Below, in pieces: positions 8,819 to 30,311 of a DNA stretch of 64,000 bases. The position numbers and the translations under genes were made by a program. The notes beneath the pieces are model-generated. The model saw only the letters and a program-made list of their open reading frames with translations. It was not told where the DNA came from and searched no databases. The stretch is from positions 3,002,792 to 3,066,791 of the forward strand of contig NZ_CP019434.1 in assembly GCF_001975725.1 (NCBI RefSeq). The letters run 5' to 3'. The stretch comes from Acidihalobacter ferrooxydans (GTDB lineage: Bacteria > Pseudomonadota > Gammaproteobacteria > DSM-5130 > Acidihalobacteraceae). Every line of letters starts with the position of its first letter. Position 1 is the first letter of the stretch.

Positions 8819-10015
8819 TTATTTTTTATTCAGCCATTGCATTACGGTGTCGCGCACACGCTGCCACAGATTGCCGCGCGGATCGTCTTGCAGTGCCACC
8901 AGCGGTTGCTTCGCGAGCACTTTATTGCCGAGCTTGACCACCACCTCGCCGACCGGCTGCCCTTTGGTGAGCGGCGCCTGCAACCTGGACGGCAGATTCA
9001 TTTCGGCCTTGAGCCGGGAATACTGGCCGGTCGGCACGGTCACGTACAGGGCCTGCGCCAGCCCCAGGCCAATGTGTTCCTTGGCGCCGTTCCAGACCCG
9101 GACATCTTTGAGCTTCTGCCCACCCGTGTAGAGCTTGTGGGTGGAATAGAAGCGGAAGCCATAGTTGAGCAGCGCATCATCGAGACGCGCAAGGTTCAGG
9201 TAATTGGCCTCGCTCGAGGCATTGGGCTGGTTCGCGCCCATGATGACAGCGATCATGCGCGTGTCGCCGCGCTTGGCGGAGCCGACCAGGCAATAGCCCG
9301 CCTCTTTGGTGTAACCGGTCTTGAGCCCGTCGGCCGTCGGATCGCGCCACAGCAATTTATTGTAGTTGTATTGACGGATGTTGTTCCAGGTGAACTCTTT
9401 CTCGCTGAAATAATGGTAATACTGCGGGAACTGCGTGATGATCGCGCGCGCCAGTTTGGCCAGATCCAGCGCCGAGACGTGCAAGCCCGGACTCGGCAGA
9501 CCGGTCGGATCGGTGTAATGCGTATTGTTCATGCCAAGGTGTTTGGCGTAGCTGTTCATGAGGCTGACGAAGGCCGCCGAGGTACCGGCGATGCCCTGCG
9601 CCAGCGTCATCGCCGCATCATTACCCGAAGGCACCAGCAATCCTTGCAGCAAGTCGTTGACGCTGACCTCGGAGCCGAGTTTGAGGAACATGCGCGAGCC
9701 GCCCTGGCGCCAGGCCTTCTCGCTCACGCGGAACTTGGTATCCAGCTTGATACGTCCTGCCTTGAGTTCCTGAAACACGATATAGGCGGTCATCAGTTTG
9801 GTGGTACTGGCTGGCGCCATGTGCTCGTTCGGGTTTTTTTCGACCAGAATCTGCCCGGTCTGATAATCCATCAGCACATAGGACTTCGCTGCCAGTGGCG
9901 GCATCTGCGGGACCGGCACCGGCAGCGCGGGCGCGGTGGCGGCGCGCGCTGCACCCAGCGGCAGGAACATCAGAATGGCGAGAGCCGTGGAGGCGAAACG
10001 CAGGAACTTGCGCAT
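8819..10015 (-). CDS. dacA: D-alanyl-D-alanine carboxypeptidase, PBP5/6 type (active copy 1)
   Basis: A 398-residue periplasmic penicillin-binding protein with a signal peptide ending near AARAA. The catalytic triad motifs are intact: SxxK (APASTTKLM, residues about 70-73), SGN (VPSGNDAAM) and KTG (DGLKTGYTK). The C-terminal PBP5 domain ends in an amphipathic helix, GNLWQRVRDTVMQWLNKK, that anchors to the inner membrane. It trims the terminal D-Ala from pentapeptide stems. ATG 10024 is an equally possible start. It lies after rlpA copy 2 (140 bases upstream) and before dat. Confidence 0.96.
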   Translation of the reverse strand: MRKFLRFASTALAILMFLPLGAARAATAPALPVPVPQMPPLAAKSYVLMDYQTGQILVEKNPNEHMAPASTTKLMTAYIVFQELKAGRIKLDTKFRVSEKAWRQGGSRMFLKLGSEVSVNDLLQGLLVPSGNDAAMTLAQGIAGTSAAFVSLMNSYAKHLGMNNTHYTDPTGLPSPGLHVSALDLAKLARAIITQFPQYYHYFSEKEFTWNNIRQYNYNKLLWRDPTADGLKTGYTKEAGYCLVGSAKRGDTRMIAVIMGANQPNASSEANYLNLARLDDALLNYGFRFYSTHKLYTGGQKLKDVRVWNGAKEHIGLGLAQALYVTVPTGQYSRLKAEMNLPSRLQAPLTKGQPVGEVVVKLGNKVLAKQPLVALQDDPRGNLWQRVRDTVMQWLNKK

Positions 10016-10164
10016 GGGGATCATGACCTTGGAAATGGCAGTTGAAAATTAAGCCGTCGATTCTACAGACTGCCCCCAGAGGTTTCGAGTAACGTTTCGT
10101 AAAGATACGGAACTTTGCCAGGCGCTATGCATACACACATAGCTGATGTGCCTGCACACCGGCC

Positions 10165-10914
10165 TTAATCAACCTGCACCCGGAAGCCCTTGATCCCGAT
10201 GGCGTTCATGCGCCGCGCCGCGGCGTCCAGCTTGTCGACACTGGCCAGCGGGCCAAGGCGCACCGCGAACAGCGTCTGGCGCTGACCTCGCAAGAGGGTA
10301 TCGACCCGCACCGGGCCGAAGCCCATATCGCGCAGCGCAGTCGCCAGGTGTTGCGCGTTGTCCCGGCCTGCGAAAGCGCCTACCTGCAGAAACAATCGTG
10401 GCGCAGGCGCGCCCTGTACCTGTGTGCGCGGTGGCGGCGGGTTGCTGCGCGGCCGCCCCGGATCCACGGCCTGCAACTCGACGATTGCCGTACCCGGCCC
10501 GATCATGTCGAGATCGCGCGCGGCGGCATAGGACAGGTCGATGATGCGATTAGCCACGAACGGGCCACGATCATTCACCTTCACCACCACCTGCCGGCCA
10601 TTGCGCAGGTTCGTCACCCGCACCCAACACGGCAGCGGCAGCACCTTGCTCGCCGCGGTGAGCGCATACATGTTGTAGGTTGATCCGGTGGAGGTCGGAT
10701 GCCCGTTGAAGCCGGGGCCGTACCACGAGGCGATGCCGCGCTGCTGATAGCCCGCGCAGGCCGGAAGGACGGAGTAGTGGCGGCCGCCAACCACATAGGG
10801 GCGGTTGTAGGCGGCCGTACCGGGCGCCATGGCCACATGCGGCGGCGCCGTGGCGCACGCCGCAAGCAGACTGACGGCAAACAGCGCCGCGAGCGCGTGT
10901 GCGCTGCGGCGCAC
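10165..10914 (-). CDS. rlpA: RlpA-like septal lipoprotein with SPOR domain (copy 2)
   Basis: A 249-residue lipoprotein starting at GTG 10914, four bases after the dacA-copy-2 stop, with AAGG nine bases upstream. This start gives a clean lipoprotein signal (VRRSAHALAALFAVSLLAAC). The ATG at 10956 would overlap dacA by 38 bases. Domains are a double-psi beta-barrel (GIASWYGPGFNGHPTSTGST to VNDRGPF, about 60-140) and a C-terminal SPOR domain (LFLQVGAFAGRDNAQHLA). RlpA of P. aeruginosa is a lytic transglycosylase acting on peptide-free glycan. Here the family TAAH motif reads TAAS and the ANGE motif reads STGS, so catalysis is doubtful. Paralogue of the gene at 12275-13024. Confidence 0.92.
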   Translation of the reverse strand: MRRSAHALAALFAVSLLAACATAPPHVAMAPGTAAYNRPYVVGGRHYSVLPACAGYQQRGIASWYGPGFNGHPTSTGSTYNMYALTAASKVLPLPCWVRVTNLRNGRQVVVKVNDRGPFVANRIIDLSYAAARDLDMIGPGTAIVELQAVDPGRPRSNPPPPRTQVQGAPAPRLFLQVGAFAGRDNAQHLATALRDMGFGPVRVDTLLRGQRQTLFAVRLGPLASVDKLDAAARRMNAIGIKGFRVQVD

Positions 10915-10918
10915 GCGC

Positions 10919-12124
10919 TCAGGCCTTCTGGCTATGCAGCCAGTCGAGCGCGGCATTTTTCAAACGTTGCCAAAGGTTGCCGCGTGGAACGCTCTGCAGG
11001 GCCACGACCGGCGCAGTGGCCAGCGTCTTCCCATGCAGGCGCACCACCATTTCACCGAGTTTCTGCCCCTTGGCGACGGGCGCCGCAGGGGTGCCGGAAA
11101 ATTCGGCCTTGGCGGCCAACGCCGAATATTCGCCGCGCGGCAGCGTGACGTACAGCGCGTGCGCGAGACCCACGGCAAGCTTGCGTTGCGCGCCACCGTT
11201 GACACGCAGCTCACCCACCTTGGCACCGGCCTTGTACAGTTCGCGCGTCGTATAGAAACTGAATCCGTAGTTCAGCAGCACCTCACTAACGCGCGCGAGC
11301 GCGTTCAGGTTCTGATCCAGCGAAGCGCCCTTCTGTGGCGCCATGCCCATCACTGCGGCGATCAACTGCGTGTGGCCATGGCGCGCCGCGGCAGCCATGC
11401 AGAAACCGGCCGCACGATCGGCGTAGCCGGGCTCCAGACCCTCGGAGTGCGCATCGCGCCACAACAGCTTGTCGAAGTTGTACTGCGTGATGCCGTCCCA
11501 GGTAAAACGCTTCTGCGTGAAGTAATGCGCATATTGCGGAAACTGCGTCAGCAAGGCGCGCGACAGCTTGGCCATGTCCATGGCCGAGGTGTAGAGCCCG
11601 GGGGCGGGCAATCCGGTGACATTGCTGTAATGTGTGTTGCCGAGGCCGAGATTGTGCGCGTCGGCGTTCATCAGGCTCACGAAGCTGCTGCGTGTACCGG
11701 CGATGCCCTGGGCCAGGGTCGCAGCAGCGTCGTTGCCCCCGTCGACCAGCAGACCCTGCAACAGATCGTTGACAGTGACCTCGGAGCCAGGGCTCAGGAA
11801 CATGCGGGCGCCCGGTTCATGCCAGGCCACGCGACTCACGCGCAGGCGGCTGTCGAGCGCGATGCGCCCCGCCTGCAACTCCTGGAACACGACGTACGCG
11901 ACCATCAGCTTGGCCGCGCCACCGGGGGCCTGCCGGGCAGATGCGTTCTGCTGCGCGATGACCTGCCCTGTTCGCGCATCCAACAAGACGTAGGAATGGA
12001 CGCCGAGCGCCGGCACTGCCGGAACGACGAACGGGGTCTGCGACGCAGCCGGTGCGGCGGCATGGGCCGGGCCGACAGACCACAGCAGTAACGATGCAAA
12101 CAACAGACGCAAAAGTTTGTTCAT
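10919..12124 (-). CDS. Catalytically inactive PBP5-type carboxypeptidase paralogue (pseudoenzyme)
   Basis: A 401-residue intact reading frame aligning along its full length with the dacA at 8819-10015. It has a signal peptide (ending GPAHA), the peptidase fold, the PBP5 C-terminal domain and an amphipathic C-terminal helix (GNLWQRLKNAALDWLHSQKA). All three catalytic motifs are lost. STTK is replaced by GAAK (Ser to Gly69, Lys72 kept), SGN by GGN (residues 129-131), and KTG by EPG (231-233). No stop or frameshift is present and the domain anatomy is preserved, so it looks like a retained pseudoenzyme rather than a decaying gene. It lies between two rlpA genes in the mrdA-rodA-mltB run. A structural or regulatory role is inference. 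Confidence 0.92.
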   Translation of the reverse strand: MNKLLRLLFASLLLWSVGPAHAAAPAASQTPFVVPAVPALGVHSYVLLDARTGQVIAQQNASARQAPGGAAKLMVAYVVFQELQAGRIALDSRLRVSRVAWHEPGARMFLSPGSEVTVNDLLQGLLVDGGNDAAATLAQGIAGTRSSFVSLMNADAHNLGLGNTHYSNVTGLPAPGLYTSAMDMAKLSRALLTQFPQYAHYFTQKRFTWDGITQYNFDKLLWRDAHSEGLEPGYADRAAGFCMAAAARHGHTQLIAAVMGMAPQKGASLDQNLNALARVSEVLLNYGFSFYTTRELYKAGAKVGELRVNGGAQRKLAVGLAHALYVTLPRGEYSALAAKAEFSGTPAAPVAKGQKLGEMVVRLHGKTLATAPVVALQSVPRGNLWQRLKNAALDWLHSQKA

Positions 12125-12177: not shown

Positions 12178-12276
12178 AGGAGCCTGTCGGACTTGGAAAG
12201 AATCGGCTGCGGCGATGGGATAATGGCCCATTTCCCCGCTCGCCTCGCTTCGATCCTCCAAGTCCGACAGGCTCCT
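12178..12276. repeat. Family A palindromic repeat, copy A1 (short form, 99 bp)
   Basis: The first and last 20 bases (12178-12197 and 12257-12276) are perfect inverted repeats beginning AGGAGCCTGTCGGACTTGG. The whole 99 bp folds as an imperfect palindrome. It overlaps the rlpA copy 1 stop codon: the element's AG supplies the last two bases of TAG at 12275-12277. Confidence 0.9.
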
Positions 12277-13024
12277 AGTCCACAGCCACCTGGAAGCCTT
12301 TGATGCCAAATTCACGCAAGCGTTCCGCAGCGGCATCGAGTGCATCGACATTGGCCAGCGGACCGAGTCGCACCCGGTACAATTTCCGGCCATTCGCTCC
12401 CGTACCCGCATCCACGGTCAACGGCCTGAACCCACGCGCCGCGAGCTGGGCTTTATGGCGCGCGGCGTTGTCGGCGCTGGAAAACGCGCCGACCTGCAGA
12501 AACAGCCGGGGTGCCGGCGCGCCCTGCGCTTGCGTGCGCGGCGGCGGCGGATTGACCGCAGGCTGGCGCGGGTTGACCACCTGCACCTCGACCAGCGCCG
12601 TGCCCGGCCCGATCATGCCCAGCTTCTTCGCCGCGGCATACGACAGGTCGATGATGCGATCCTGCACAAAGGGGCCACGGTCGTTCACCTTGACCACGAC
12701 CTGCCGGCCATTTTGCAGATTTGTCACCCGCACCCAGCTCGGCAATGGTAGATCGCGACTCGCCGCGGTCATCGCGTACATGTTGTAACGCTCGCCGTTG
12801 GATGTCTTGCGACCGTGAAATTTCGGCCCGTACCAGGACGCGATGCCACGGCGGTGGTATCCCACGGCGGTCGGCAGCACATCGTAACTGCGACCGTGGA
12901 CGACGTAGGTCTGGTTATAGGGCGGCACACCGGAGCGCACGACGCGCGGCGGCGTGCTGGCGCATGCGGCGAGCAACAGGGCCATAGTCCCCGCCGCGAA
13001 CAGACGCGGTATACGGCGGCTCAT
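12275..13024 (-). CDS. rlpA: RlpA-like septal lipoprotein with SPOR domain (copy 1)
   Basis: A 249-residue lipoprotein (ATG 13024) with signal MSRRIPRLFAAGTMALLLAA and the lipobox Cys. The double-psi beta-barrel runs from GIASWYGPKFHGRKTSNGE to VKVNDRGPFVQDR; the SPOR domain starts at LFLQVGAFSSADN. SPOR domains bind denuded glycan at division sites. As in copy 2 the family TAAH motif is TAAS; the SNGE motif is kept, and the NDRGPF aspartate is present. It lies eight bases after the mltB stop and is the first half of a duplicated rlpA-dacA unit. Its stop codon is completed by repeat A1. Confidence 0.93.
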   Translation of the reverse strand: MSRRIPRLFAAGTMALLLAACASTPPRVVRSGVPPYNQTYVVHGRSYDVLPTAVGYHRRGIASWYGPKFHGRKTSNGERYNMYAMTAASRDLPLPSWVRVTNLQNGRQVVVKVNDRGPFVQDRIIDLSYAAAKKLGMIGPGTALVEVQVVNPRQPAVNPPPPRTQAQGAPAPRLFLQVGAFSSADNAARHKAQLAARGFRPLTVDAGTGANGRKLYRVRLGPLANVDALDAAAERLREFGIKGFQVAVD

Positions 13025-13031
13025 TGTGCGC

Positions 13032-14066
13032 TCATTGCGCATCGCCCGACGCGCCCTGATGATAGGCCCGCTTGATGTCCTGACTGAGCTGATAGACCGC
13101 CATCGCGTACAGCGGACTGTAGTTGTAACGCATGATGACGTAAAAATTCTTCGCCCCGACCCAGTATTCGGGGCCACCCGCGGCATCCAACCGAATCACG
13201 CTGTACGGCCCGCCGCCAGCCAGCCGGGCCTGCGGTCGGATGCCCTGCGCGCGCAACTGCGCCAGCGTGAGCGCCGGGCGGGCGGCAGGCCGGCGCGTGG
13301 CGTACGGGTCGCCCTTGACCGACGCCGGCACCGCCACCCCGGCACCAGCCTGCCAGCCATGTACGGCAAGGTAATTGGCGACACTGCCGATGGCGTCGAT
13401 GGGGTCGTTCCACAAATCGCGTTGGCCGTTGTCGTCGAAATCGACCGCATAGGCCCGATAACTACCGGGCATGAACTGCCCCATGCCCATGGCACCCGCA
13501 TACGAGCCTTTCACGGCGAAGGGGTCGATTTTTTCCTGGCGCGCCAGCAACAGAAACTGCGTGAGTTGACTCTGAAAAAACCGGGCGCGCGGCGGATAAT
13601 CGAAGCCGAGCGTGGCCAGACTGTCGAACACCGGCCAGCGCCCCATATGACGGCCGTAGTACGTCTCGACACCGATGATCGCGGTCACCATTTGCGGCGG
13701 CACGCCGTAGACTTTCTGCGCCCGCTCCAACGCACTGCGGTACTTGTGCCAGAACGCGACGCCGCCGCGCACGCGCGCCGGAGTGAGGAAAATGCGGCGG
13801 TATTTGTACCAGGGCAATGACTCGGCAGGACGCTTGATCGCCGCAATCACCGCCGGTTGCAATTTAACCCTGTCGAACTGGCGCTGTAGCTCGGCCTTGT
13901 CGAAACCATCTTTTCTGACCAGCTGATCGATGTATTCACGCACTTCGGGCCGCTGCGCGAAAGCGCTATTGCCGGTGGGCTTGAGTTCGGCCCTGGACGT
14001 TGCGCAACCGCCCAGTAACAGTGCAATGGCGAGCGGTACCGAAAGGGCGCGGAGGAAACGGTTCAT
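13032..14066 (-). CDS. mltB: Membrane-bound lytic murein transglycosylase B
   Basis: A 344-residue lipoprotein (signal MNRFLRALSVPLAIALLLGG, lipobox Cys) that cleaves murein glycan to 1,6-anhydro products. Seen are the catalytic glutamate in AIIGVETYYGRHMG, then GSYAGAMGMGQFMPGSY and DLWNDPIDAIGSVANYLAVH, all signatures of the MltB (GH103) family. ATG 14066 follows the rodA stop by five bases. An upstream reading-frame extension into rodA is a shadow. It belongs to the mrdA-rodA-mltB-rlpA elongasome gene order common in gammaproteobacteria. Confidence 0.95.
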   Translation of the reverse strand: MNRFLRALSVPLAIALLLGGCATSRAELKPTGNSAFAQRPEVREYIDQLVRKDGFDKAELQRQFDRVKLQPAVIAAIKRPAESLPWYKYRRIFLTPARVRGGVAFWHKYRSALERAQKVYGVPPQMVTAIIGVETYYGRHMGRWPVFDSLATLGFDYPPRARFFQSQLTQFLLLARQEKIDPFAVKGSYAGAMGMGQFMPGSYRAYAVDFDDNGQRDLWNDPIDAIGSVANYLAVHGWQAGAGVAVPASVKGDPYATRRPAARPALTLAQLRAQGIRPQARLAGGGPYSVIRLDAAGGPEYWVGAKNFYVIMRYNYSPLYAMAVYQLSQDIKRAYHQGASGDAQ

Positions 14067-14071
14067 AGGGT

Positions 14072-15181
14072 TCAATGGGCCACCAGTGTGCGGTGAGAAT
14101 GGATGCTCATCAGCATACCGAACGCGGCCAGCAGGGTCACCATCGATGTGCCGCCGTAGCTCACCAGCGGCAGCGGCACGCCGACCACCGGCAGCAGGCC
14201 GACCACCATGCCGACATTGACAAACACATACACCGCGAACGTCAGGCTGATGCTGCCCGCGAGCAGGCGCGAATAGGTGTCCTGCGCGTACACCGCGATC
14301 GACAGGCCACGCAGCACGATGAACACGTACAACGCCAGCAACAGGCCGGCACCGAGCAGACCGAACTCTTCGCCGAATACGGAAAAAATGAAGTCGGTCG
14401 AGCGCTCGGGCAGGAAATCGAGCTGCGCCTGACTGCCGTTGAGCCAACCCTTGCCGTACAGGCCGCCGGAGCCGACCGCGATCATCGACTGAATGATGTG
14501 GTAACCCGCCCCGAGCGGATCGCTCTCGGGTTTGAGGAACGTCAGCACCCGATCGCGCTGATAACCGTGCATGAAATGCCACAGCACCGGCAAAGCGGCA
14601 AGAGCGAGCCCGAACAGCGCGAACAGCACGCGATAACGCACGCCGGACAGGAAAATCACAAAAAAACCGGCCATGGCGACCAACAGCGCGGTGCCCAGAT
14701 CCGGCTGCCTGGCGATCATCGCCGCCGGCAGCGCGACAATCAGGCCAGCCATCAGCAGATCCCGGCCACGGGGCGGCAGCGGCCGCCGGGAAAAGAACCA
14801 GGCCACGGCCATCGGCACAGCGAGCTTCATGATTTCCGACGGCTGAAAGCGCACGATGCCCAGGTCGAGCCAGCGCTGCGCGCCCTTGCCGACCACGGCC
14901 ATGCCCAGCACCAGCGCCAGCAGCAGCAAGCCGCCCAGATACAGCCAGGGCGTAAGCCGGCGCAGTTTCTGCGGCGGCACCTGCGCCAGCGCGAGCATCC
15001 CGACGAATGCCAGCCCCAGGCGGATCGCCTGGCGGGACACCACCGTGAAGTGCTCGCCGCCGGCACTATAGAGAATGACCAGCCCGACGCCTCCCAGCAG
15101 CAGCAAGGCTGCCAGCAGCACACCGTCGAGATGCAGCCAGCGCAGCACACGCATGCCGCCCGCAAAATCATTGCGCGGCAT
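14072..15181 (-). CDS. rodA: Rod-shape peptidoglycan polymerase RodA (SEDS)
   Basis: A 369-residue integral membrane protein with about ten hydrophobic segments. Motifs include AQRWLDLGIVRFQPSEIMKL, MIARQPDLGTALLV, GSQAQLDFLPERSTDFIFSV (with the conserved acidic region) and the C-terminal LPLVSYGGTSMVTLL. RodA polymerises glycan strands together with PBP2 during cell elongation. ATG 15181 overlaps mrdA by 14 bases, indicating coupled translation. Confidence 0.96.
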   Translation of the reverse strand: MPRNDFAGGMRVLRWLHLDGVLLAALLLLGGVGLVILYSAGGEHFTVVSRQAIRLGLAFVGMLALAQVPPQKLRRLTPWLYLGGLLLLALVLGMAVVGKGAQRWLDLGIVRFQPSEIMKLAVPMAVAWFFSRRPLPPRGRDLLMAGLIVALPAAMIARQPDLGTALLVAMAGFFVIFLSGVRYRVLFALFGLALAALPVLWHFMHGYQRDRVLTFLKPESDPLGAGYHIIQSMIAVGSGGLYGKGWLNGSQAQLDFLPERSTDFIFSVFGEEFGLLGAGLLLALYVFIVLRGLSIAVYAQDTYSRLLAGSISLTFAVYVFVNVGMVVGLLPVVGVPLPLVSYGGTSMVTLLAAFGMLMSIHSHRTLVAH

Positions 15182-17183
15182 GTTTGACCACCCTGGATGG
15201 GTCACCCGCCGCGCCCGACGACTGGCTCGGTTGCAAGCGCAGATCCTGCGGCGCATTCGGCTTGAACGTCACCTGTCCATTCGCATCGAGCGCGTTGTGC
15301 TTCAGGTAATACCCGATCATTTCGCGCGCCACCGGCGCCGCGCTACGACTGCCGCCACCGTTGTGCTCAACCACCACGGCGACCGCGATCAACGGATGCT
15401 CGGCCGGGGCAAACGCAATAAACAACCCATTGTCACGCAGCTTGTAGGGGATCGATGCCTCATCCGTCCTGGTGTTATAAAGCTGCGAGGTCACCTGCGC
15501 GGTACCCGTCTTGCCGCCGACGGTGTACGGAAAATCCCGGAACACGGCCCATGCCGTGCCATTGCGCTGCTGCGTCACCTGCTTCATGCCGGTGATCACC
15601 GCTGCCCAGTAACGCGAACTGTGCAACGTGACCGGTGCCAGCGGCGTACTCGGCAACGCCGTTATCGCGCCACTGCGCGGATTATGCGTGGCGCGCAGCA
15701 GATGCGGGCGAAACCCTTTGCCGCGCATCGACAGCGTGGCGGTCGCGCTGGCCAGCTGCAGCGGCGTGGTGAGCATGAACCCCTGACCGATGCCGGCAAC
15801 CACGGTATTACCCGGATACCACATCTGACCGCGCGCGCGCCGCTTCCACTCGCGCGAGGGCAATAGCCCCGACAACGCGCCGACCGTATCGATTCCGGTC
15901 GGTTTACCCAGGCCGAACCGGCTCAGAAAACGGTGCATGTCATCGATACCGAGCTTGTAGGCCAGCGGATAAAAATAGGTGTCGACCGACTCGGCGATAG
16001 CCTTGGCTACCGCAGTCATGCCATGCCCACTCGCACGCCAGTCGAGATATTTGCGCGCCGCCGGGTCGCCCGGAATGCGCCAGTACGGGCCAGCCGGCAA
16101 CGGCTCGTCGGGCTTGACGATACCGTATTGCATACCCGCCAGCGCCATGAACGGCTTGATCGTCGAAGCCGGCGGATACTGCCCGGCCAGGGCGCGGTTG
16201 AACAGCGGCCGGAAGGCATTCTCGCGCAGCGCGTTGTAGCGCGCGCTGCTGATGCCGTCGACAAACCAGTTCGGGTCGTAACTCGGCGAACTCACCAGCG
16301 CCAGAACATCGCCGTTACGCGGATCGATCGCCACGGCCGCACCCGCCCGACCGGCCAGGGCGCGCAGCGCAACCTGTTGCAGACCGGCATCGAGACTCAA
16401 CACCAGGTCCTCACCCGGAACCGGCGGCTGGCGCTCGAGCACGCGGATCGGGCGCCCTCTGGCGTTGACCTCGATGCGCTCGTAGCCGACCTTGCCATGC
16501 AGGCGGGTTTCGTAAAAATTCTCGACACCGGTCTTGCCGTAATGACTCGTGCCCTCGTAGTTGCGCGCATCGACCGACTGCAATTCCCTGATATCGATCT
16601 GCCCGACGTAGCCCACCGCATCGACCATCGCGCTTCCGAACGGATAATGGCGGCGCAGCCGGGCGGCGATATCCACGCCCGGAAAACGATAGCGCTGCAC
16701 GGCAAAGCGCGACACCTCGGCCGGCGTAAGATTGAACCGCAGGGTAATCGACTTGAACGGCCACTTGGCGCGCATTTCGGCCTTGAACCGCCGGATGTCG
16801 TTCGGGCCGAGCGCGACCACGTCCGCCAGCGCCGCCAGCGTGGCCTCCATGTCAGGCACCTGCTCCGGCGTCACTTCAAGCGCGTAAGACGGCACGTTTT
16901 CAGCCAGCAGCGTGCCGTGGCGGTCGTAGATCAGACCGCGCGGTGGCGGCAGCGCGACGATGTGCACGCGGTTGTCCTGCGCCAGGCCGACATAACGCGC
17001 ATGCTCGAACACCTGCAAATCGACCAGCCGTCCCAACACGCCAAGGTACACCACCAGCACGACCAACCCCGCGGCAGCGGCACGCCAGGCAAACTGGCGT
17101 CGCTCCCGTATCGGATCTTTCAGCGACTCCCGACGCAAAACTTCTTCATCCTGACCGCTGACGGCGGACCAACAACGCGGCAT
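15168..17183 (-). CDS. mrdA: Penicillin-binding protein 2 (peptidoglycan transpeptidase)
   Basis: About 671 residues: one N-terminal membrane helix (LVVLVVYLGVLGRLVDLQVF), the PBP dimerisation domain, then the transpeptidase domain with ASTIKPF (SxxK), SVDTYFY (SxN position, SxD as usual in PBP2) and KTGTAQV. It cross-links murein in the elongasome with RodA. The start is uncertain: ATG 17183 lacks a clear ribosome site, and TTG 17138 (just before RRESLKDPIRERR) is an alternative matching the usual N-terminus better. It is the first gene of the long minus-strand murein gene run; mreBCD are not adjacent. Confidence 0.95.
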   Translation of the reverse strand: MPRCWSAVSGQDEEVLRRESLKDPIRERRQFAWRAAAAGLVVLVVYLGVLGRLVDLQVFEHARYVGLAQDNRVHIVALPPPRGLIYDRHGTLLAENVPSYALEVTPEQVPDMEATLAALADVVALGPNDIRRFKAEMRAKWPFKSITLRFNLTPAEVSRFAVQRYRFPGVDIAARLRRHYPFGSAMVDAVGYVGQIDIRELQSVDARNYEGTSHYGKTGVENFYETRLHGKVGYERIEVNARGRPIRVLERQPPVPGEDLVLSLDAGLQQVALRALAGRAGAAVAIDPRNGDVLALVSSPSYDPNWFVDGISSARYNALRENAFRPLFNRALAGQYPPASTIKPFMALAGMQYGIVKPDEPLPAGPYWRIPGDPAARKYLDWRASGHGMTAVAKAIAESVDTYFYPLAYKLGIDDMHRFLSRFGLGKPTGIDTVGALSGLLPSREWKRRARGQMWYPGNTVVAGIGQGFMLTTPLQLASATATLSMRGKGFRPHLLRATHNPRSGAITALPSTPLAPVTLHSSRYWAAVITGMKQVTQQRNGTAWAVFRDFPYTVGGKTGTAQVTSQLYNTRTDEASIPYKLRDNGLFIAFAPAEHPLIAVAVVVEHNGGGSRSAAPVAREMIGYYLKHNALDANGQVTFKPNAPQDLRLQPSQSSGAAGDPSRVVKHAAQ

Positions 17184-17325
17184 AAGCCGCAACACAAAAC
17201 CCGAATCATCCCTCAGGCGAAGCGCCCTTGCCTGATTCTTGAATCAAACACTGCGCAAACATCACCTCGCCGGACGGGCCACCCGGATAACAAGCACGCT
17301 AGCGACAGCCGCCGCCGCGCCGGAT

Positions 17326-29138: not shown

Positions 29139-30311
29139 TTATAGATGTTGGCGCAGACGATTCCACAGCGTGCCGAAAAAGCCGGCCGGCGCGGCAGCCA
29201 CGGCGGCGCGCAGCGGAGCCTCTGCCACCGGCTTGCCGGCCAGCGTGACCGTGGCCATGCCCAGCACCTGCCCCTTGTGGATGCCCCCGGCGAGGGCTGT
29301 GGCGCCGGGGTCAATCGACACATGCAACTGCGGCCGCTCGCCGCGCGGGGCGGTGACGGTGAGCGCGGTGCCGAGTTCGACGGGCACCTTGTCGGGTTGC
29401 AGGCCGACATTGCGATACACGCCGAGGGTCTGGCCCGGTTTCGCGACGGTGTGGTTGCGCGTGAAGCGGTAGCCGTAATCGAGCAGCGACAGGCTGTCGC
29501 TGACGCCGGTGGCCCAGTTCGGCGTGCCCATGACCACGGCGATCAGGCGGCGTCCGCCGCGCACCGCGGTCACATCCATGCAGTAGCCCGCGGCCCGGGT
29601 GTGCCCGGTCTTGAGCCCGTCGACGCTGGGGTGATGGAACAGGGCCGGGTTCCAGCTGCGCTGGGTGATGCCGGCATAGCGGTAGCTCTTGATCCGGGAA
29701 ATGTCGATCACCTGCGGATAGCGCTGGATCAGCGCCCGCGACAGCCGGGCGATGTCCAGCGCGGAGGTGTGCAGGTCCGGCCGCGGCAGCCCATCGACAT
29801 CCGAGTAATGCGTGCCGGTCAGTTTGAGCGCGGCCGCGGTCGTGTTCATTTGCGCGACGAAGGCCGCGCGGCTGCCGGCGATGGCCTGCGCCAGCGCCAC
29901 CGCGGCATCGTTGCCCGAATCGATGATCAAGCCGTGCATCAACTGATCGACGGTCACCGGCAGGGCCGGCTGGATGAACATGCTCGACCCGCCGGTGTGC
30001 CAGGCGACCTTGCTCACGGGCACGGTTTCGGACCAGCGCAGTTTGCCGTCCGCCAGCGCACCATAGGCGAGATACGCCGTCATCAGCTTGGTCAGACTGG
30101 CTGGCGGCAATTGCAGGTTCGGCGCCTTCTGCGCCAGCACCTGCCCGGTCTGGAAGTCCATCAGCACGTAGCTCCTGGCATCGTGCAGCACCGGCGGCGC
30201 AATGACGGGAGGCGGCAGGGCGGCGGGCGCGGCCACCGCCTGGGTTGCGCCCAGCAACAGGGCCATGCCCAACGCAGCGCGCAGGCGGCCAATCCTGAAA
30301 CAAAACGACAC
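29139..30311 (-). CDS. dacA: D-alanyl-D-alanine carboxypeptidase, PBP5/6 type (third paralogue)
   Basis: A 390-residue secreted DD-carboxypeptidase with intact motifs PPASLTKLM (SxxK), IDSGNDAAV (SGN) and DGLKTGHTR (KTG). It keeps the PBP5 C-terminal domain and a C-terminal amphipathic stretch (FFGTLWNRLRQHL). It starts with GTG 30311, with AAGGAGA ten bases upstream. It is unlinked to the rlpA-dacA cluster and more diverged from it than those two copies are from each other. Redundant or specialised (dacC/dacD-like) carboxypeptidase is likely. Confidence 0.95.
   Translation of the reverse strand: MSFCFRIGRLRAALGMALLLGATQAVAAPAALPPPVIAPPVLHDARSYVLMDFQTGQVLAQKAPNLQLPPASLTKLMTAYLAYGALADGKLRWSETVPVSKVAWHTGGSSMFIQPALPVTVDQLMHGLIIDSGNDAAVALAQAIAGSRAAFVAQMNTTAAALKLTGTHYSDVDGLPRPDLHTSALDIARLSRALIQRYPQVIDISRIKSYRYAGITQRSWNPALFHHPSVDGLKTGHTRAAGYCMDVTAVRGGRRLIAVVMGTPNWATGVSDSLSLLDYGYRFTRNHTVAKPGQTLGVYRNVGLQPDKVPVELGTALTVTAPRGERPQLHVSIDPGATALAGGIHKGQVLGMATVTLAGKPVAEAPLRAAVAAAPAGFFGTLWNRLRQHL

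Follow-up and report, generated by a model that had tools for sequence, protein, structure and literature searches.

Results

A second PBP5-type gene in the elongasome operon

The window analysed here, a stretch of 64,000 nucleotides from Acidihalobacter ferrooxydans, carries on its minus strand a series of genes transcribed in the order mrdA, rodA, mltB-like, rlpA1, a PBP5 paralogue, rlpA2, dacA and dat. The first two, mrdA (encoding PBP2; 15168..17195) and rodA (14072..15256), are those of the canonical elongasome operon. They are followed by a lytic transglycosylase gene named mltB-like by eye (13032..14582, start uncertain) and by rlpA1 (12275..13186, with a true start probably near 13024), which encodes a DPBB + SPOR lipoprotein. 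The same is true of rlpA2 (10165..10914), for which we take a GTG at 10914 as the start, the listed open reading frame reaching 10956. The dacA gene (8819..10024) encodes a PBP5 that is predicted to be active from its motifs STTK, SGN and KTG. Between the two rlpA genes lies the paralogue of interest (10919..12124), whose frame is intact over 401 codons from an ATG start, exactly as an earlier sequence-only reading had described it. The GTG of rlpA2 falls 4 nt past the TGA of this gene and has AGAAGG upstream of it, and rlpA2 may therefore be translationally coupled to the paralogue.

We sampled the order with five genomes from two genera: the window genome (G000) and G001 represent the window's genus, and G002-G004 a sister genus. 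The tandem rlpA pair (window 10165-10956 and 12275-13186) is also present in G001, where rlpA1-rlpA2-dacA occur without a PBP5 paralogue between the rlpA genes. The idea that an rlpA-dacA unit was duplicated as a whole finds no support on this ground, and the rlpA duplication is a separate event. The Glu of the GExY stretch of RlpA1 is replaced in RlpA2 of both G000 and G001 and in the single RlpA of G004. A 105-bp dispersed palindromic repeat (REP/MITE-like; window 12178-12282) lies between rlpA1 and the paralogue; the genome holds about 40 full or near-full copies, some of them split by about 56 bp.

The paralogue encodes a signal peptide, an S11 domain (residues 38-261; Pfam Peptidase_S11, 186.5 bits), a PBP5_C domain (291-381; 67.5 bits) and a C-terminal helix (384-400). 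Its product is 53% identical to the neighbouring DacA, which served as the reference for aligning the motifs. The SxxK site reads GAAK (residues 69-72; 11909..11920, minus strand), with the Ser and both middle residues gone and the Lys kept. SGN has become GGN (129-131; 11732..11740, minus), the Asn being kept, and KTG has become EPG (231-233; 11426..11434, minus), followed by a one-residue insertion. These are the substitutions that the sequence-only reading had listed. Its description of the motifs as destroyed holds for Ser69, the SGN Ser and the KTG Lys, but K72, N131 and G233 remain both here and in all orthologues. The protein thus has the S11 and PBP5_C fold of an active PBP5-type enzyme but lacks the SxxK Ser, SGN and KTG. 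We refer to it below as the pseudoenzyme.

An AlphaFold2 model built from 16 sequences has the complete PBP5 fold (pLDDT 90, pTM 0.84), including the C-terminal helix at 384-400, and so agrees with the earlier expectation that the fold would be retained. The top PDB match is PBP5 of Pseudomonas aeruginosa (4k91; TM 0.80/0.94). Among solved structures, P. aeruginosa PBP5 (39% identity) and E. coli PBP5 (35%) come nearest, at TM values to the target of 0.88-0.94, and a sequence search finds the same neighbours. The hydrophobic moment of the C-terminal helix, 0.53, is similar to that of the DacA helix (0.56), but 13% of shuffled sequences attain it as well.

The same catalytic residues are missing throughout the order

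Exactly one second PBP5-like gene of this kind is present in each of the five genomes. The three sites read GAAK/GGN/EPG in G000, GVVK/GGN/ETG in G001 and ASTK/GGN/TVG in G002-G004; in the last case an Ala is aligned with the nucleophile and a Ser adjoins the old nucleophile position (PAASTK). The SxxK Ser, the SGN Ser and the KTG Lys are absent from all five proteins, whereas K72, N131, D132 and G233 are invariant. No close relative with intact motifs was found in either genus, and recent decay in a single strain is ruled out because every relative has the same losses. The sequence-only reading had proposed to check whether GAAK/GGN/EPG is conserved; of these, GGN is shared by all five. In both proteins of the window's genus a single residue is inserted after the KTG position and GG precedes xxK; the losses are therefore older than the split of these two species, whose DacA proteins are 77% identical.

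From 39 intact S11 homologues we took the 47 positions with at least 95% conservation as a reference. Thirty of these are unchanged in all five pseudoenzymes and 11 are mixed; the other six (S69, S129, I192, D228, K231 and T235) are missing from every one. All of the common losses except I192 lie in or beside the catalytic motifs (hypergeometric P = 0.003, for a motif set that was chosen after the list had been seen). Chance cannot explain the same pattern of loss in five genomes.

In S11 enzymes no acyl-enzyme can form without the nucleophilic Ser, and the Lys of KTG holds the carboxylate of D-Ala-D-Ala or of a beta-lactam. Since Ser69 is gone, the pseudoenzyme should have neither DD-carboxypeptidase activity nor the ability to bind penicillin covalently. 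The same considerations weaken two functions proposed at the outset, those of a murein-peptide sensor and of a beta-lactam decoy: an acyl-serine is impossible, and the Lys needed to hold the carboxylate has been substituted, in the window by Glu. A broader version of the first idea is that the altered pocket can still hold stem peptides, or protect pentapeptides, but does not cleave them. The invariance of K72, N131, D132 and G233 is in keeping with such a role, and protection of the fifth D-Ala of pentapeptides has been suggested as a function of E. coli PBP6a (PMC5596342). Nevertheless, we consider it improbable. The KTG Lys and the neighbouring conserved Thr are lost in all five proteins, the Glu found in the window's genus should repel the D-Ala-D-Ala carboxylate, and the laboratory mutant PBP5(S44G) is reported, in work as cited in PMC5596342, to be unable to bind substrate in vitro.

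The retained K72 and N131 could alternatively serve some other chemistry on a re-used fold, and the Ser beside the old nucleophile in the sister genus might be thought to provide a substitute. That Ser is missing from the window's genus (GAAK, GVVK), so that no nucleophile is common to the five proteins, and apart from Q59 they have acquired no newly conserved polar residue. A new catalytic function is accordingly the explanation to which we attach the least weight, and we regard it as very unlikely.

The pseudoenzyme is under purifying selection

Codon models gave omega values of 0.07-0.11 for the pseudoenzymes and 0.03-0.05 for intact DacA. Pairwise NG86 estimates of dN/dS were 0.13 for the pair from the window's genus and 0.16-0.28 among the proteins of the sister genus, figures that are approximate because dS is near or at saturation. 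Both sets of values lie far below 1, as the sequence-only reading had anticipated for a maintained gene. Substitutions between pseudoenzymes fall mostly at third codon positions, and the GC3 of the window gene equals that of dacA (0.791). The proteins are 53-73% identical within a genus, yet the frame is intact in all five genomes; in a simulation without indels, fewer than 0.1% of such frames stayed open at 0.4 neutral substitutions per site. The pseudoenzyme protein is under purifying selection, although it is two to four times less constrained than DacA.

This last difference bears on the possibility that the gene is a relic in slow decay, whose inactivation is tolerated because other S11 enzymes are active and whose frame is held open by some weak constraint such as the coupling of rlpA2. 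Evolution two to four times faster than that of DacA would fit, as would a probable rlpA2 start only 4 nt beyond the stop codon. Against this, the gene has stayed intact in every genome through considerable sequence divergence and with 30 of the 47 key positions unchanged, and coupling to rlpA2 cannot account for conservation where the gene lies elsewhere. We therefore think slow decay distinctly improbable.

Phylogenetic grouping and range in the genomes searched

The five pseudoenzymes form one clade apart from the DacA proteins of the same genomes (support 91/92 and 95/91 in two trees) and are separated from DacA in 100% of bootstrap trees. The picture of the paralogue as a copy of the adjacent dacA did not survive this analysis, a sister relationship of the two being rejected by the AU test (p 0.001). 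The same test did not firmly reject a separate pseudoenzyme origin in the window's genus (p 0.108) and was borderline for one in the sister genus (p 0.042), whose pseudoenzymes sit on a long branch.

When a profile made from the five proteins was run against 365 further gammaproteobacterial genomes, sampled at about one or two per genus, it returned no orthologue; a neighbour outside this sample could nevertheless carry the gene. The profile scored members at 652-687 bits (701 for G004), DacA of the order at about 500 and the best outsider at 429; the 26 best outsiders all have intact motifs. A contig search matched only S11 proteins with an intact nucleophile. The sequence W-x-x-P-G was considered as a marker of the pseudoenzymes and discarded, since it is present in intact enzymes too. 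The window also encodes a third S11 protein (29139-30311, minus strand), with intact SLTK, SGN and KTG, which on the tree is nearest to Acidithiobacillus proteins and is absent from the other four genomes of the order. Horizontal transfer between acidophiles is possible in this case.

A second PBP2-RodA pair

In G002-G004 the pseudoenzyme gene is flanked by a second mrdA on one side and a second rodA on the other (mrdA2 and rodA2), separated from them by small gaps (about 65 and 30 bases in G004). The products are 51-52% (mrdA2) and 56-57% (rodA2) identical to those of canonical mrdA and rodA in the same genomes. MrdA2 retains SxIK, SVD and KTG at its SxxK, SxD and KTG sites and hence looks active. 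The pair is present in all five genomes of the order. In G000 (G000:C1:438113-441358; L102:8108-11368) and G001 it has no pseudoenzyme gene with it; there, MrdA2 has a C-terminal LysM domain fused at the corresponding place (44-45 bits, cut-off 20.9). This suggests that one wall-associated module was exchanged for another at the mrdA2 locus. With a strict cut-off, MrdA2 was not found in 271 genomes outside the order, and the second PBP2-RodA pair and the dead PBP5 therefore have the same range. It may be that mrdA2-rodA2 is an acid-adapted second elongasome.

The pseudoenzyme gene is linked to mrdA and rodA genes in four of the five genomes, namely in the window operon and in G002-G004. In G001 it lies alone on another contig, away from any elongasome gene, and the linkage is thus not universal. 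The original suggestion of a partner for the RodA-PBP2 machine is consequently strengthened by the mrdA2-pseudoenzyme-rodA2 order in the sister genus and qualified by the unlinked gene of G001.

The genomic context is also relevant to a different proposal, in which the pseudoenzyme is a dedicated regulator of DacA that tunes carboxypeptidase activity across the envelope by forming mixed dimers or occupying docking sites, with no special ties to the elongasome. PBP5 of E. coli forms dimers in vivo, and PBP5(S44G) has an altered dimer state, disturbs morphology and is dominant for shape (PMC5596342; PMC4916385). There is, moreover, a cross-linking model of DacA with a partner, YxkC (9a4z), and in the window dacA is the second gene downstream of the pseudoenzyme gene. 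The gene is not beside dacA in the sister genus or in G001, however, and its product is only about 40-54% identical to DacA from the same genomes, which leaves a common dimer surface unproven. General regulation of DacA seems to us rather unlikely; the position of the gene between mrdA2 and rodA2, together with the LysM domain fused at the equivalent place in the other genus, favours a role at the elongasome.

Discussion

There is good support for regarding the gene product as an old member of the PBP5 (S11) family that has been maintained as a pseudoenzyme: its relatives lack intact motifs and its dN/dS is far below 1. Our preferred reading of its function, which we would place a little short of an even chance, is that it stands in for a DD-carboxypeptidase at the PBP2-RodA elongasome, and especially at MrdA2-RodA2, in a structural capacity and without cutting. 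In such a scheme the protein would be exported, would adopt the PBP5 fold predicted by the model and would probably be anchored in the inner membrane through its C-terminal helix. Unable, to judge from its motifs, to form an acyl-enzyme, it would take the place of a DD-carboxypeptidase at the elongasome, and there it might dock, dimerise or compete with active DacA, limiting the trimming of pentapeptides near the synthase. The outcome would be either that pentapeptide donors are kept intact close to the synthase or that the synthase is scaffolded.

The protein differs in instructive ways from the systems it most resembles. With PBP5/DacA (a class C type-5 low-molecular-mass PBP of MEROPS family S11; 1nzo, 4k91) it shares the fold, the S11 and PBP5_C domains, the signal peptide and a predicted C-terminal helix, but it lacks the nucleophile as well as the Ser of SGN and the Lys of KTG, and this loss is conserved across the order. 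In the open-licence literature we found no S11 or PBP pseudoenzyme, the nearest cases being active-site mutants of PBP5. E. coli PBP5(S44G) has the same Ser-to-Gly change of the nucleophile; it is inactive, does not bind penicillin and, leaving midcell, becomes spread over the lateral wall (PMC2909392). That mutant carries one engineered change in an otherwise intact site, whereas here three motifs have been changed by evolution and the protein has been kept beside an active copy. Normal E. coli PBP5 has been argued to localise by substrate and not by binding PBP2 (PMC2909392), a point against our preferred reading. PBP6a (DacC) of E. coli, the proposed pentapeptide protector, is also a PBP5 paralogue with little DD-carboxypeptidase activity (PMC5596342), but it retains SxxK, SGN and KTG and binds beta-lactams. 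In Salmonella, DD-carboxypeptidases are found in a fraction of both PBP2- and PBP2SAL-elongasomes, the latter being likewise a second elongasome with an alternative PBP2 (PMC10492807). There only an alternative PBP2 is known; here an extra PBP2 comes with an extra RodA, and in one genus a dead PBP5 is encoded between them. Finally, RlpA of E. coli, encoded in the same operon, is likewise a protein of a wall-lytic family that has lost its catalytic activity and is now structural (PMC9712689), although its fold is that of a lytic transglycosylase and not of a PBP.

More speculatively, this acidophile order might have evolved a second elongasome with a dedicated non-catalytic PBP5-like subunit, complemented or replaced in one genus by the LysM domain fused to MrdA2. 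The SEDS-bPBP complex that builds the wall would then include a dead DD-carboxypeptidase as a structural component. We offer this as a tentative possibility that we would not call probable.

Annotation pipelines will label the pseudoenzyme as an active penicillin target, and such entries should be read with this warning in mind. DD-carboxypeptidases seem redundant, and whether they have non-catalytic roles is an open question raised by the work on E. coli PBP5(S44G) and PBP6a. The order studied here provides a natural counterpart of the S44G experiment, in that a PBP5-type protein without its catalytic residues has been kept through the divergence of the order, beside active copies. It is a direct genetic test case for a non-enzymatic role of the PBP5 family.
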